NCBI RefSeq assembly: GCF_900142325.1
Contig: NZ_FRAM01000002.1
Location: 186,001 to 250,000, forward strand
Direction: 5' to 3'
From: Epilithonimonas mollis
GTDB lineage: Bacteria; Bacteroidota; Bacteroidia; Flavobacteriales; Weeksellaceae
DNA: 64,000 bases
The first letter of the stretch is position 1; each line of letters opens with the position of its first letter. The notes under the pieces are model-generated. The model saw only the letters and a list, made by a program, of their open reading frames with translations, was not told the origin of the DNA and made no database searches. This document shows, piece by piece, positions 4,797 to 51,455 of the stretch. Position numbers and translations under genes: made by a program.

Positions 4797-4818
4797 TTTT
4801 CTCACTCATTTCCTATTA

Positions 4819-4839
4819 GCGCGAGCGTCTCACTCGTGC
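4819..4839. repeat. Small GC-rich palindrome between genes
   Basis: GCGCGAG (4819-4825) pairs with CTCGTGC (4833-4839) through one G-T wobble, around a 7-nt loop. It is far more GC-rich than its surroundings and lies just before a terminator. It resembles short palindromic intergenic elements seen in Bacteroidota, but its copy number cannot be judged here. Confidence 0.4.
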
Positions 4840-4846
4840 CCTTCAA

Positions 4847-4880
4847 AAAAGCAGTGATACACTCTCACTGCTTTTCTGTT
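4847..4880 (+). terminator. Terminator after the DUF2931-like gene
   Basis: An 11-bp stem, AAAAGCAGTGA (4847-4857) with TCACTGCTTTT (4865-4875), surrounds a 7-nt loop, and the right arm ends in a T-rich tail. It closes the phospholipase/lipoprotein unit. Confidence 0.75.
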
Positions 4881-4968
4881 TCCAATCATTGCAGCAAATA
4901 TATTATGTTAAATAGAACTTTGTCAATAAAAATTTACAGTAAAACAATCTATTATTGAAAATAATTTT

Positions 4969-4976
4969 TACATTTG
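4969..4976 (+). promoter_or_regulatory. Candidate -7 promoter element
   Basis: TACATTTG fits the Bacteroidota -7 consensus TAnnTTTG and lies 32 nt before the start at 5009. No TTG is found at the usual 17-23 nt upstream; the nearest is at 4955-4957. Only the -7 part is therefore supported. Confidence 0.35.
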
Positions 4977-5008
4977 TCATAACAAACAATTAAAAAACAC
5001 AAAATATT

Positions 5009-5746
5009 ATGACACCAGTTTACGAAACAGGGCACGCAAAAAACGTCGCCAATTTCCAGGATCTCATCGCTTTCTGCCAAGGCTACGGAGATAAATACAA
5101 CCCTTCCAAAAAAAGCCTTCAGATTCCACAACTGCAGCTCCTCTATCAGGAAGCACAAAGCAAGTTAGATGAGGCCAAAACACAAAAAACAGCTTTTGAC
5201 AATGCCACCAACAGCAGGAGGAATACCTTCGCAGACCTCAGGCCTCTTTCCACCAGGATCATCAATGCACTGTCCGTCTCCGGTGCAGATACTTTGGCAA
5301 TAGAAGATGCAAAATCCATCAACAAAAAGATACAGGGCACATCTTCCAAAAAACCAGCATCTGCAGAAACACCCACACCAACGCAGGGCACAGCCGCAGG
5401 GATTTCCACTTCCCAGCAATCCTACGATCGCTTGATCGATCATTTTACCAGCCTGATAGAATTACTAAACCAAAACGAATTCTATGCACCCAACGAGGAT
5501 GATCTCAAGACCATAACCCTGCAGGCCAGGCTCACAGAACTGAAAACAGCAAACACAGAACTTATAAACGCCTTCACCGCCCATAGCAATGCCATGATCA
5601 GCAGAAACGAAACACTCTATCACAAACAGACAGGGCTCGTTCAGATTTCCAAAGAGGTCAAGCAATATGTAAAAAGCGTATTCGGAGCAGGCAGCCCACA
5701 ATATGATCAGGTAAATGGTCTGGAGTTCAAAGTTCGTAGGAACTAG
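5009..5746 (+). CDS. Conserved hypothetical protein of Chryseobacterium type
   Basis: This 245-residue protein has no signal peptide or membrane segment. It is mostly helical and rich in Ala, Thr, Asn and Gln, with two helical halves separated by a Pro/Thr/Ser-rich linker (about residues 110-130, SAETPTPTQG). The C-terminal block contains YVKSVFGAGSPQYDQVNGLEF, which is like the end of a family of hypothetical proteins I recall from Chryseobacterium. No function is known to me. Codon use is rich in C-ending codons compared with the phospholipase gene upstream. Directly behind the TAG stop, in the same frame, lies a 21-bp tandem repeat array with no stop until 6106, so a readthrough product or an extended ancestral gene is possible. 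Confidence 0.7.
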   Translation: MTPVYETGHAKNVANFQDLIAFCQGYGDKYNPSKKSLQIPQLQLLYQEAQSKLDEAKTQKTAFDNATNSRRNTFADLRPLSTRIINALSVSGADTLAIEDAKSINKKIQGTSSKKPASAETPTPTQGTAAGISTSQQSYDRLIDHFTSLIELLNQNEFYAPNEDDLKTITLQARLTELKTANTELINAFTAHSNAMISRNETLYHKQTGLVQISKEVKQYVKSVFGAGSPQYDQVNGLEFKVRRN

Positions 5747-5777
5747 TATAAAACGACCGCCGTCTCTCTCAAAACGG

Positions 5778-5987
5778 CCATTGGCGGACATACTATTACC
5801 ATTGGCAGTTCCAAAGTTACCCTTGGCGGCCATATTATTGGCGGTGGCAGCCATACTTTTACCTCTGGCGAACATACTATGAGCAATGTCTTTGACAAAA
5901 CGACCTATGGCGACTATACTTTTACCCTTGGCGTTGACAATATTACCGATGGCGGAGATACTTCAGGCAATGGCAGTGTGACATCAG
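5778..5987 (+). repeat. Degenerate 21-bp tandem array, about ten units
   Basis: Ten consecutive 21-nt units run without gaps from 5778 to 5987. The consensus is close to CC-TTGGCGG-CATACTATTA. Unit 1 is 5778-5798, and later units start at 5799, 5820, 5841, 5862, 5883, 5904, 5925, 5946 and 5967. Units 1, 3, 5 and 7 are closest to the consensus, and unit 6 is the most diverged. Read in the frame of the upstream gene, the array encodes heptads such as TIGGHTI and TLGGHII. On the other strand it encodes heptads such as MAATANN and MAAKGNF. No ribosome-binding or start signal makes it a convincing gene of its own. It fills most of the 383-nt gap between 5746 and 6130. Confidence 0.8.
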
Positions 5988-5992
5988 AACAC

Positions 5993-6016
5993 AGCACGGA
6001 TCCACATCCGTGCTTT
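5993..6016 (+). terminator. Hairpin terminator after the tandem array
   Basis: A 9-bp perfect stem, AGCACGGAT (5993-6001) with ATCCGTGCT (6006-6014), surrounds a CCAC loop and is followed by a short T stretch. It lies after the array, which suggests that transcription from 5009 runs through the repeats and ends here. Confidence 0.6.
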
Positions 6017-6091: not shown

Positions 6092-6129
6092 TCTGTCAAA
6101 ATTTAAAAACTGAATATCCCGGACCATCC

Positions 6130-7056
6130 ATGAAAAAAGATTTCTATCTCACCAGGTATGCCCTCATTATCAAGAGGCTGGAGCGCTCACCAGCCACCTA
6201 TCCGGAGATAGAATCCTACCTCCTCGGCTCCTTCGAGTTTCAGGATGCCAACATCACCGGTTACTCCATCCGCACCCTCCAGAGAGATATCAGAGACATC
6301 GCCAATCTTTTCAATTTTGACATCCATAACAAAAAAAAGGGAGACAACAGGTATTACATAGAAAGCCGCCCCGTCATGGAAGTGGACGAGTACAACCAGA
6401 GGCTGTTAGAATCTTTCCAGATCATGAACGCCGTCAACGCCCAGCCGGACTTTGCAGAGTTCATCCATCTGGAAAACCGGACACCACGCGGGATTCAGAA
6501 CTTCTATGATCTGCTCTTCGCCATCCGGAACAAAAAAATACTCGAATTCCGGTACTTCAAATACAAAGACCAGACTACCACCTCCCGGAAAGTCCGCCCA
6601 CTGGCGCTCAAAGAGTCCAAAGACCGCTGGTATCTCATAGCAAAAGATACAAAAGACGAAAAACTGAAGGCATTCGGCCTGGACAGGATCAGCGATTTGA
6701 CAGTCACCAAAGCAGGCTTCCGCCAAGAACAGACCATCAACCTGAAAGAACATTTCAAAAACGCTTTCGGCATCATGAACCTGGAAGAAGAGCCGGAGAA
6801 GATTGTCATCAGATCAACCAAAGAGCAGGCAGAGTATCTGAAAAGCTCGCCGCTGCACCATTCCCAGAAGATCGAAAAGGAAACCGACAGCTCAGTGTAT
6901 TTTGCCTATGACCTTTACCCCACCTATGATTTCATTCAGGAGATCCTCTCATTCGGCAACCAGGTAAAGGTCATGGAGCCGCAGATGCTCATCGGGAAAG
7001 TAAAAGAGATGCTCAAAAAATCAGTTCAGCAGTACGATGACCCTTCCGCAGAATAG
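6130..7056 (+). CDS. WYL-domain transcriptional regulator
   Basis: This 308-residue regulator has the usual order: an N-terminal winged helix-turn-helix (about 5-75, with YSIRTLQRDIRDI as the recognition part), a WYL domain (about 134-195, with LEFRYFKYKD, RWYLIAK at 166-172 and FGLDRISDL at 182-190), and a C-terminal WCX-like extension (about 215-295). WYL proteins sense ligands, often nucleotides or nucleic acid, and control defence, DNA-damage or metabolic genes; the target here is unknown. The gene stands alone, convergent with the polysaccharide locus. Its codon use is notably C-rich compared with its neighbours, which hints at a separate origin. The family call is firm. Confidence 0.9.
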   Translation: MKKDFYLTRYALIIKRLERSPATYPEIESYLLGSFEFQDANITGYSIRTLQRDIRDIANLFNFDIHNKKKGDNRYYIESRPVMEVDEYNQRLLESFQIMNAVNAQPDFAEFIHLENRTPRGIQNFYDLLFAIRNKKILEFRYFKYKDQTTTSRKVRPLALKESKDRWYLIAKDTKDEKLKAFGLDRISDLTVTKAGFRQEQTINLKEHFKNAFGIMNLEEEPEKIVIRSTKEQAEYLKSSPLHHSQKIEKETDSSVYFAYDLYPTYDFIQEILSFGNQVKVMEPQMLIGKVKEMLKKSVQQYDDPSAE

Positions 7057-51365: not shown

Positions 51366-51455
51366 GGCAGCTATTTCCGCCTTCCGCTCCCAATCTTTTT
51401 ATTTTTTTCAAAAAAACAAAAAGGATTTCCGCTCAAGTCGGGCTGCGAGCCATCA
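51366..51455. repeat. Intergenic repeat-like element with T-rich/A-rich hairpin
   Basis: This gap before bshC holds a CCGC-rich stretch (51377-51390), then an imperfect inverted repeat (51395-51408 with 51410-51423, one A-C mismatch), then a GC-rich tail with TCGGGCTGCGAGCC. The mix is unlike coding sequence on either side and resembles intergenic repeated elements I recall from Flavobacterium and Chryseobacterium genomes. Copy number cannot be seen from one window. The T/A hairpin could also end porin transcription. Confidence 0.4.

Follow-up and report, generated by a model that had tools for sequence, protein, structure and literature searches.

A gene family of Epilithonimonas and its relatives carries a strictly spaced, non-coding 21-bp array and suggests an unrecognised protein-and-DNA-array system

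The Locus and Its Surroundings

The window, a stretch of 64,000 nt from the genome of Epilithonimonas mollis (3.7 Mb in 13 contigs), contains near its start a gene that is followed by a row of 21-bp repeats and a hairpin. The features are:

5009–5746, + strand: array-linked family gene, an open reading frame of 245 aa with its stop codon TAG at 5744–5746
5736–5756, + strand: possible first 21-bp unit, degenerate, overlapping the TAG stop and sharing the end AAAACGA with the unit at 5883
5757–5987, + strand: untranslated 21-bp array of 11 units in phase, based on TRF, lag-21 identity, the counterpart in E. hungarica and the non-coding substitution pattern
5993–6014, + strand: intrinsic-terminator-like hairpin directly 3' of the array (9 pairs, loop of 4, T-rich tail)

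TRF reports period 21 at 5778–5880 with 60% matches, while units listed by hand continue in phase up to 5987, so that the array covers approximately 5757–5987 (11 units, perhaps with a twelfth from 5736). Identity at lag 21 over 5757–5987 is 0.538, as compared to 0.248 in shuffled sequences (sd 0.030, maximum 0.367; n = 5000). Values of similar height are reached at lags 42 and 63 (0.58 and 0.51), as expected for a 21-nt array. The array, the TAG stop and the hairpin ending the unit behind the repeats had all been recognised in an earlier note made from the letters of the sequence, and all three are borne out. That note counted ten units at 5778–5987, which a degenerate unit at 5757–5777 and perhaps another at 5736–5756 precede, and it described the encoded heptads as regular: the 21-nt periodicity stands, the heptads however are less regular than worded there, adjacent units being only ∼54–57% alike. 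An equivalent locus exists in E. hungarica, with an array of the same length and a hairpin at the equivalent place.

The genes on both sides deserve a brief description. A WYL/WCX regulator gene (6130–7056) lies directly 3' of the array, an adjacency kept in E. hungarica. On the 5' side, the segment 1814–4796 encodes a protein with a Tle1-like phospholipase domain (PF09994) and, after it, a DUF2931 protein; the two genes look like a secretion-system effector and immunity pair. The stretch between these and the family gene (4817–4997) is present as a tandem duplicate in E. hungarica (L028:2585–2989, copies 73% alike). In a search of the whole window at Rfam gathering scores, a Flavo-1 RNA (51369–51455, minus strand) was the sole match, and none was obtained at the array.

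A Gene Family Accompanied by 21-bp Arrays

Relatives of the window gene were found in 15 of 23 genomes of the genus and in 10 of 395 genomes sampled across the phylum (own genome counted in both cases), and at 59 loci in genome_contigs. The named ones belong mostly to Flavobacteriales (Epilithonimonas, Chryseobacterium, Flavobacterium, Aequorivita and others); further relatives stem from some Chitinophagales bins and from one bin labelled Neisseriaceae. Downstream of the stop codon, lag 21 was the top lag among lags 8–39 in 68 of 73 loci, a count that includes the window's own locus and near-duplicates and leaves out loci with <300 nt downstream, whereas it was on top in only 7/77 control segments upstream, 8/62 further downstream and 3/78 inside the gene. 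When proteins were collapsed at 90% identity, all members of 49 out of 53 clusters had lag 21 on top. It was missing downstream of L009 and L043 and of the partial gene matches L072, L080 and L084. Two distant relatives (L099, L101) have a 21-nt array upstream of the gene instead of downstream, and L095 and L104 have one on neither side. Arrays shorter than 105 nt were left out of all later array analyses, for which 68 were kept.

A terminator-like hairpin was located ≤100 nt after the array in 25/66 loci, between gene and array in 15/66, and within the array, whose bounds are loose, in 17/66. The nearest neighbours of the family gene varied: a scan of 86 of the 91 neighbour proteins gave 66 families, the commonest with 9 members, and in the same scan no partition motor gene was constantly adjacent among the best 25 of these families. 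A plasmid or phage origin was considered and set aside, as the window protein had no match in a collection of 72,556 plasmid records and the relative L047 none in a phage collection; on two IMG/VR contigs (L139, L140), which may be phage or host DNA, a relative is followed by a lag-21 array.

Several single loci are worth recording. The family gene is broken by one stop in genome G020 (L147/L170), and two adjacent family genes with one TAA inside each occur in G017 (L009/L025), both cases of gene decay. Gene and array of a locus of Flavobacterium croceum (L050) and of one of Epilithonimonas tenax (L052) share 98% DNA identity over 1467 bases, reflecting either a recent transfer or mixed assemblies. 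The contigs of L036, L042, L047, L057, L065, L071 and others end <1 kb behind the gene, as if assemblies were broken by the arrays or by multiple copies.

The Array Is Non-coding

In the window the gene frame remains open from 5747 through the TAA at 6104–6106, as the earlier note had correctly observed, and the arrays of the window and of E. hungarica contain no stops in this frame where ∼4 would be expected in each. Two of the readings offered in that note, namely that the gene once continued through the repeats or that its stop is read through, would fit such an open frame. The substitutions do not fit: among 243 aligned bases 3' of the stop in the two species we counted 21 changes, distributed 9:8:4 over the codon positions, of which 17 would be non-synonymous and 2 synonymous codon changes in the array, while the gene itself exhibits the third-position excess of a coding sequence (27:8:48) that is absent from the array. 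Across the 68 arrays the gene frame contains 344 stops as compared to 414 expected from shuffles and is free of stops in 7 and interrupted in 61 arrays; the next frame has 263 stops, with 12 arrays stop-free. Given the stops in most relatives together with the non-coding substitution pattern, the open frame of the window is most likely due to chance. The earlier note had itself named random stops in the frame or unit lengths that are not multiples of 3 as evidence against a coding tail, and both are found, the latter as periods of 41/42 in the possibly related DUF6261 loci described below. The upstream arrays of L099 and L101 and the existence of orphan arrays without the gene point in the same direction. 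Continuation or readthrough is thus rejected, a coding tail at the window locus being extremely improbable and as a reading for the whole family already refuted.

Unit Spacing, Sequence and Conservation

Distances between neighbouring units, determined in 56 of the 68 arrays with a profile of their own, were 21 in 612 of 646 cases and never 20 or 22, and 9 were 42, although it should be noted that the profiles were built at period 21 and hence favour this distance somewhat. The unit sequence itself is free: consensus sequences differ strongly between loci. Their similarity follows the distance of the adjoining proteins (Mantel r 0.64, p 0.0005, 46 loci of 49 aligned proteins), which derives in part from shared descent. 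In some loci the units have been homogenised within the array, with a lag-21 identity of up to 0.96.

Array identity was above the value for four-fold sites in 16 of 19 close pairs, two further pairs being tied and one lower (gapped columns excluded). Between the window and E. hungarica it amounts to 0.92 as opposed to 0.73 at four-fold sites; the other intergenic flanks of this pair are also kept, at 0.86 on both sides. Units of the window family show dyad symmetry (p<0.05) in just 2 of 68 arrays. RNA folding of the 68 arrays is alike on the two strands (median z −0.89 and −0.78), with z < −2 in 19 arrays on the plus and 15 on the minus strand. The gene strand is poor in G, C exceeding G in 56/68 arrays and also in 47/66 of the flanks that follow them. 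The units are arranged head-to-tail without spacers, so that the repeat and unique-spacer layout of CRISPR is absent.

Orphan Arrays at Two Conserved Chromosomal Sites

In Kaistella gelatinilytica (genome G682, L075) and in genome G015, the unit of the gene-linked array recurs in further arrays that lack the gene nearby. A search with the G015 array gave matches in 12 of 23 genomes of the genus, and among the 28 loci fetched for these, several of them overlapping, 4 contained the family gene. Two orthologous locations host the orphan arrays: at site A they lie between a major-facilitator-type transporter and a symporter, at site B 5' of a peptidase-E-like gene (gene names from our reading of the translations). 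Where the neighbour gene could be located, an array is present at site A in 10/21 genomes and at site B in 14/22, some of these arrays (for example G018 at A, or the window's genome and G017 at B) being weak.

The unit type at site B varies between species. In G007, taken as E. hungarica because of matching gene coordinates, site B holds 19 units of the window type. The window's own genome is also among those in which the linked unit type recurs at a conserved site: its site B contains a short remnant of which 72 gapless bases align to the window array with a score of 60, neither 440 congener pieces nor 300 shuffles giving more than 36. A pattern search for the window unit in this genome returned the known array only, the site-B copy being too degenerate for the pattern and found via its neighbour gene. 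Compared to permuted genomes, site arrays matched the unit of their own genome with p 0.006 over 21 site arrays, in a statistic that leaves genome kinship aside. The own unit ranked 1 or 2 of 15 in 8 of the 21, including rank 1 at site B in both G007 and the window's genome, and 5 or worse in 12. Site segments scoring <18 and four site-B segments consisting of 7-nt repeats had been dropped from this test, and 3 of 24 site arrays sit in genomes without a detected family gene. The site arrays of G008, G013, G017, G018 and G019 are unlike their own linked arrays; site B of G003 resembles the window type (score 56), and the linked unit of G003 itself is different. Site arrays are present and no family gene was detected in the assemblies G012 (73% complete) and G016 (88%).

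Beyond a 14-base match (E 0.015), the linked arrays of G015 and G682 have no flank in common with the orphan ones, and we therefore discarded a mobile element with common ends for these two genomes. Site A of G015 carries its array in a direction that reads against both flanking genes. An orientation of the arrays with replication was likewise dropped: sampled GC skew of G015 gave no clear signal, and in G022 the skew puts sites A and B on one replichore with the linked array, which nevertheless points the opposite way.

Other repeats were noticed along the way. A further 21-nt array with another unit, of the type AACTAAATGAATCA, is found in G015 at ∼1.805 Mb (L226:5271–5418), flanked by an ABC-transporter-like and a mevalonate-pathway-like gene; no family gene was matched in the 20 kb covered, which hints at more array families. 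Tandem repeats of 7 nt occur at the site-B loci L195, L196 and L200, and in G015 such repeats (ATCAACT-like in L142) separate the 21-nt array from the peptidase gene. Site B of G008 and G013 also has lag 14 on top.

The Protein and Its Possible Relationship to DUF6261

AlphaFold2 predicts the 245-aa window protein as all-helical, with eight helices (pLDDT 89.1, pTM 0.77) and a disordered linker at residues 113–132. From the list of helices and the conserved columns we read it as probably composed of two similar halves. The family is mostly basic (median pI 9.2, range 5.5–9.6, 49 relatives), the median of the seven first DUF6261 proteins being 7.9. No DNA-binding domain was recognised in the window protein. 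Foldseek returned no match with E≤0.001 among folds in the PDB for the window or the DUF6261 model, and none among viral models for the window model; sequence searches of the PDB gave best E values of 0.43 (window protein) and 0.19. The helical bimodular sensor domain of McpS was the best helical bundle for one model and ranked near the top for the other, with a VIA-align Z of 9.4 where the tool advises ∼13 for helical bundles and with Foldseek E values of 0.058 and above for the DUF6261 model, and has no bearing on function. Searches of NCBIfam, PHROGs and PADLOC yielded weak matches only, with best E values of 0.0016, 0.0033 and 0.0021 among the families listed. A recurrent weak match to arylmalonate decarboxylase (Pfam, 15/49 relatives, best E 0.00066; NCBIfam, 14/49, best E 0.0025) was set aside, since the window protein lacks it, the relatives are not mutually independent and the predicted structure is all-helical.

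A distant homology with DUF6261 (PF19775) is likely, albeit not proved. The window protein scores 18.7 bits against this family, below the Pfam gathering score of 27, and 4 of 49 relatives match it at E≤0.1 (best 0.0017). Aligned with hhalign to 35 true DUF6261 proteins, the window family gives E 0.00066 and a probability of 27% over 61 columns, and the AlphaFold2 models of the two proteins have their helices in the same order. Of 296 genomes from the taxonomic family, 115 encode DUF6261, in up to 6 copies each; the window's own genome has 2. The only mention of DUF6261 found in the literature concerns Streptococcus oralis, subscription papers having been mostly outside the search.

Both families share a similar length, the order of helices, an array adjoining the gene and a weak profile match. 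They differ in that the arrays of DUF6261 lie upstream of the gene, have a period of 41/42 and often contain dyads, whereas those of the window family lie downstream with a period of 21. Within the 420 nt preceding the gene, 31 of 35 DUF6261 loci have 41 or 42 as their top lag, and neither is among the six commonest downstream lags. Dyad symmetry (p<0.02) was observed in 18 of 37 DUF6261 arrays, several being alternating palindromes about every 21 bp; this count includes L129 and L135, which were read with a wrong open reading frame and are omitted from the 35 loci of the lag count. Pairs in the 18 dyad arrays comprise 813 Watson-Crick, 21 G.T, 34 A.C and 71 other combinations, without the G-U excess that stems of RNA would show. 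An array of RNA hairpins is therefore unsupported, considering also the few dyads in the window family and the similar folding on both strands. Steps of two (21) or four (41/42) helical turns suit a DNA element.

Interpretation and Alternatives

We propose that the array is made up of DNA binding sites that recur with an exact step of two helical turns (21 bp), which would place all copies on the same face of the double strand. The protein of the adjoining gene would recognise the unit and assemble along the repeats to form a phased nucleoprotein row, and would also recognise matching orphan arrays at fixed intergenic sites of the same chromosome. Its role could then be structural, such as anchoring or looping of the chromosome, rather than the control of one gene. 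That a helical two-module protein occupies 21-bp sites along one face of the DNA helix, both in cis and in trans, appears to us rather probable, though by no great measure; the identity of the binder, the binding to DNA and the structural role are all inferred. In its favour are the tie between gene and array, the fixed spacing, unit sequences that follow protein distance, the DUF6261 dyads without a G-U excess, the similar folding of both strands, the orphan arrays at two orthologous sites, the window unit at site B of two genomes and the mostly basic protein. It counts against this proposal that the own unit ranks fifth or lower in the majority of the ranked site arrays, that G012 and G016 have site arrays and no detected family gene, that the protein has no recognised DNA-binding domain and no matching solved fold, that units of the window family hardly ever show dyads, that a minority of arrays fold stably as RNA, that some relatives lack the array, and that the first DUF6261 proteins are less basic; arrays could also be homogenised by recombination among themselves, with no protein involved. 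The earlier note had offered as its third option a length-variable non-coding array, of which the non-coding part holds true; the strict 21-bp spacing, the tie to a gene family and the matching arrays elsewhere are more than a mere repeat of variable length would show.

An origin of the arrays as selfish or neutral minisatellites, spread and homogenised by recombination or slippage next to a gene that is a chance or hitch-hiking neighbour, would account for the homogenised units of some loci and for orphan arrays without a matching gene, and mobile minisatellite elements of 23 and 41 nt are indeed described from Porphyromonas gingivalis (PMC4596501). Drift should however give rise to steps of 20 and 22 nt, which were never found, and the near-constant company of one gene family, the two orthologous sites occupied by orphan arrays in many congeners, the lack of a common flank in G015 and G682 beyond the 14-base match and the array identity above that of four-fold sites all speak against this origin, which we judge unlikely. 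A touch less likely still is a function as RNA, in which the array would be transcribed with or beside the gene and its 21-nt motif would bind the protein, comparable to RNA antitoxins or protein-sponging RNAs. As the window array precedes a terminator-like hairpin, it may belong to the transcript of the gene, and more than a third of the loci have such a hairpin behind the array; the G-poor gene strand and the stable folding of a minority of arrays would also fit. Elsewhere, however, such a hairpin separates gene and array or falls inside the loosely bounded array, the bias in C over G extends into the flanks, the opposite strand folds alike, the dyads of DUF6261 lack a G-U excess, the array at site A of G015 is antisense to both its neighbours, and an RNA has no need for a fixed step of 21 bp.

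Alternatively, the units might be operators through which transcription of the adjacent gene (autoregulation) and of the genes at sites A and B is regulated. Such a role has common ground with the proposed phased nucleoprotein row because both need a DNA-binding protein, and it agrees with the location of DUF6261 arrays upstream of the gene, where promoters are expected, and with site B preceding the peptidase-E-like gene. Given that the arrays of the window family lie downstream of the gene, that ten to twenty copies in phase exceed the usual need of an operator and that neighbours of the family gene are of many kinds, we give operators about as little chance as a function in RNA.

Returning to the binding of phased DNA sites, the gene family and its arrays suggest a so far unrecognised protein-and-DNA-array system. 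In a wider sense, it is quite possible, although we would stop short of calling it probable, that we are looking at a widespread two-part chromosomal system of Bacteroidota, composed of one family of helical proteins, comprising the window family and DUF6261, and of satellite-like arrays phased at two or four helical turns, located beside the gene and at fixed sites, with specificities that diversify between species and paralogs and arrays in trans that follow. If true, a gene family carrying its own strictly phased array, with arrays of the same period, and in some species of the same unit, at conserved sites, would represent a naturally occurring equivalent, in bacteria, of satellites of the centromere or anchor type, with protein and DNA that co-evolve. 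Should the protein bind the arrays, these would offer a ready set of protein-DNA pairs with differing specificities and a new route to study the anchoring and organisation of bacterial chromosomes, and would explain junk-looking repeats that may break assemblies.

Comparison with Known Systems

Iteron-type plasmid origins combine a Rep protein with direct repeats of 17–22 bp. The likeness is evident in direct repeats, each spanning about two turns of the helix (∼21 bp here), beside the gene of the presumed binder, and in a unit sequence that differs among relatives while the spacing is kept. Unlike iterons, the arrays described here are chromosomal, occur several times per genome in some cases, comprise 10–20 units and have orphans at fixed chromosomal sites; moreover, the window protein is without a match in the plasmid collection, and no replication initiator domain is among the best 25 of 33 Pfam families (49 relatives, E≤0.1, ranked by members). 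ParR-parC and similar plasmid centromeres consist of short phased repeats adjoining the gene of the protein that binds them, and a row of such repeats beside the gene of a presumed binder is what we observe as well, with the difference that our family has no constant partner gene, is chromosomal and has unlinked arrays. Type III toxin-antitoxin loci also combine a gene with tandem repeats, as does the window locus; in contrast to them, no toxin of the ToxN family is present among the families listed (25 of 25 in NCBIfam, 6 of 6 in PADLOC and the best 25 of 33 in Pfam), and there is no G-U signal. By analogy, the logic of the proposed system resembles that of iterons and plasmid centromeres, but the defining features looked for in the searches above (an initiator domain, a plasmid match and a constant partner gene) were not found.

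Among the matches listed in our literature search, which left subscription papers mostly outside, we found no account of the system, including the accessible parts of PMC6749651, PMC4501049 and PMC4596501. A survey of prokaryotes, in its accessible part, describes families of non-coding satellites spread through the genome as rare and considers repeats of >30 nt (PMC6749651). The elements BrickBuilt and 464/PgRS of P. gingivalis are intergenic, non-coding and dispersed in one genome, with tandem units of 23 and 41 nt; they have been classed as MITEs bearing terminal inverted repeats, to which BrickBuilt adds a leader and a tail (accessible part of PMC4596501). They differ from the arrays reported here, which share no flanks in G015 and G682, and no gene family is tied to them in the part of the paper that is accessible. 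As far as that part goes, these 23- and 41-nt minisatellite elements are nevertheless the nearest described repeats we found: they too belong to Bacteroidota, and their 41-nt step is that of many DUF6261 arrays.
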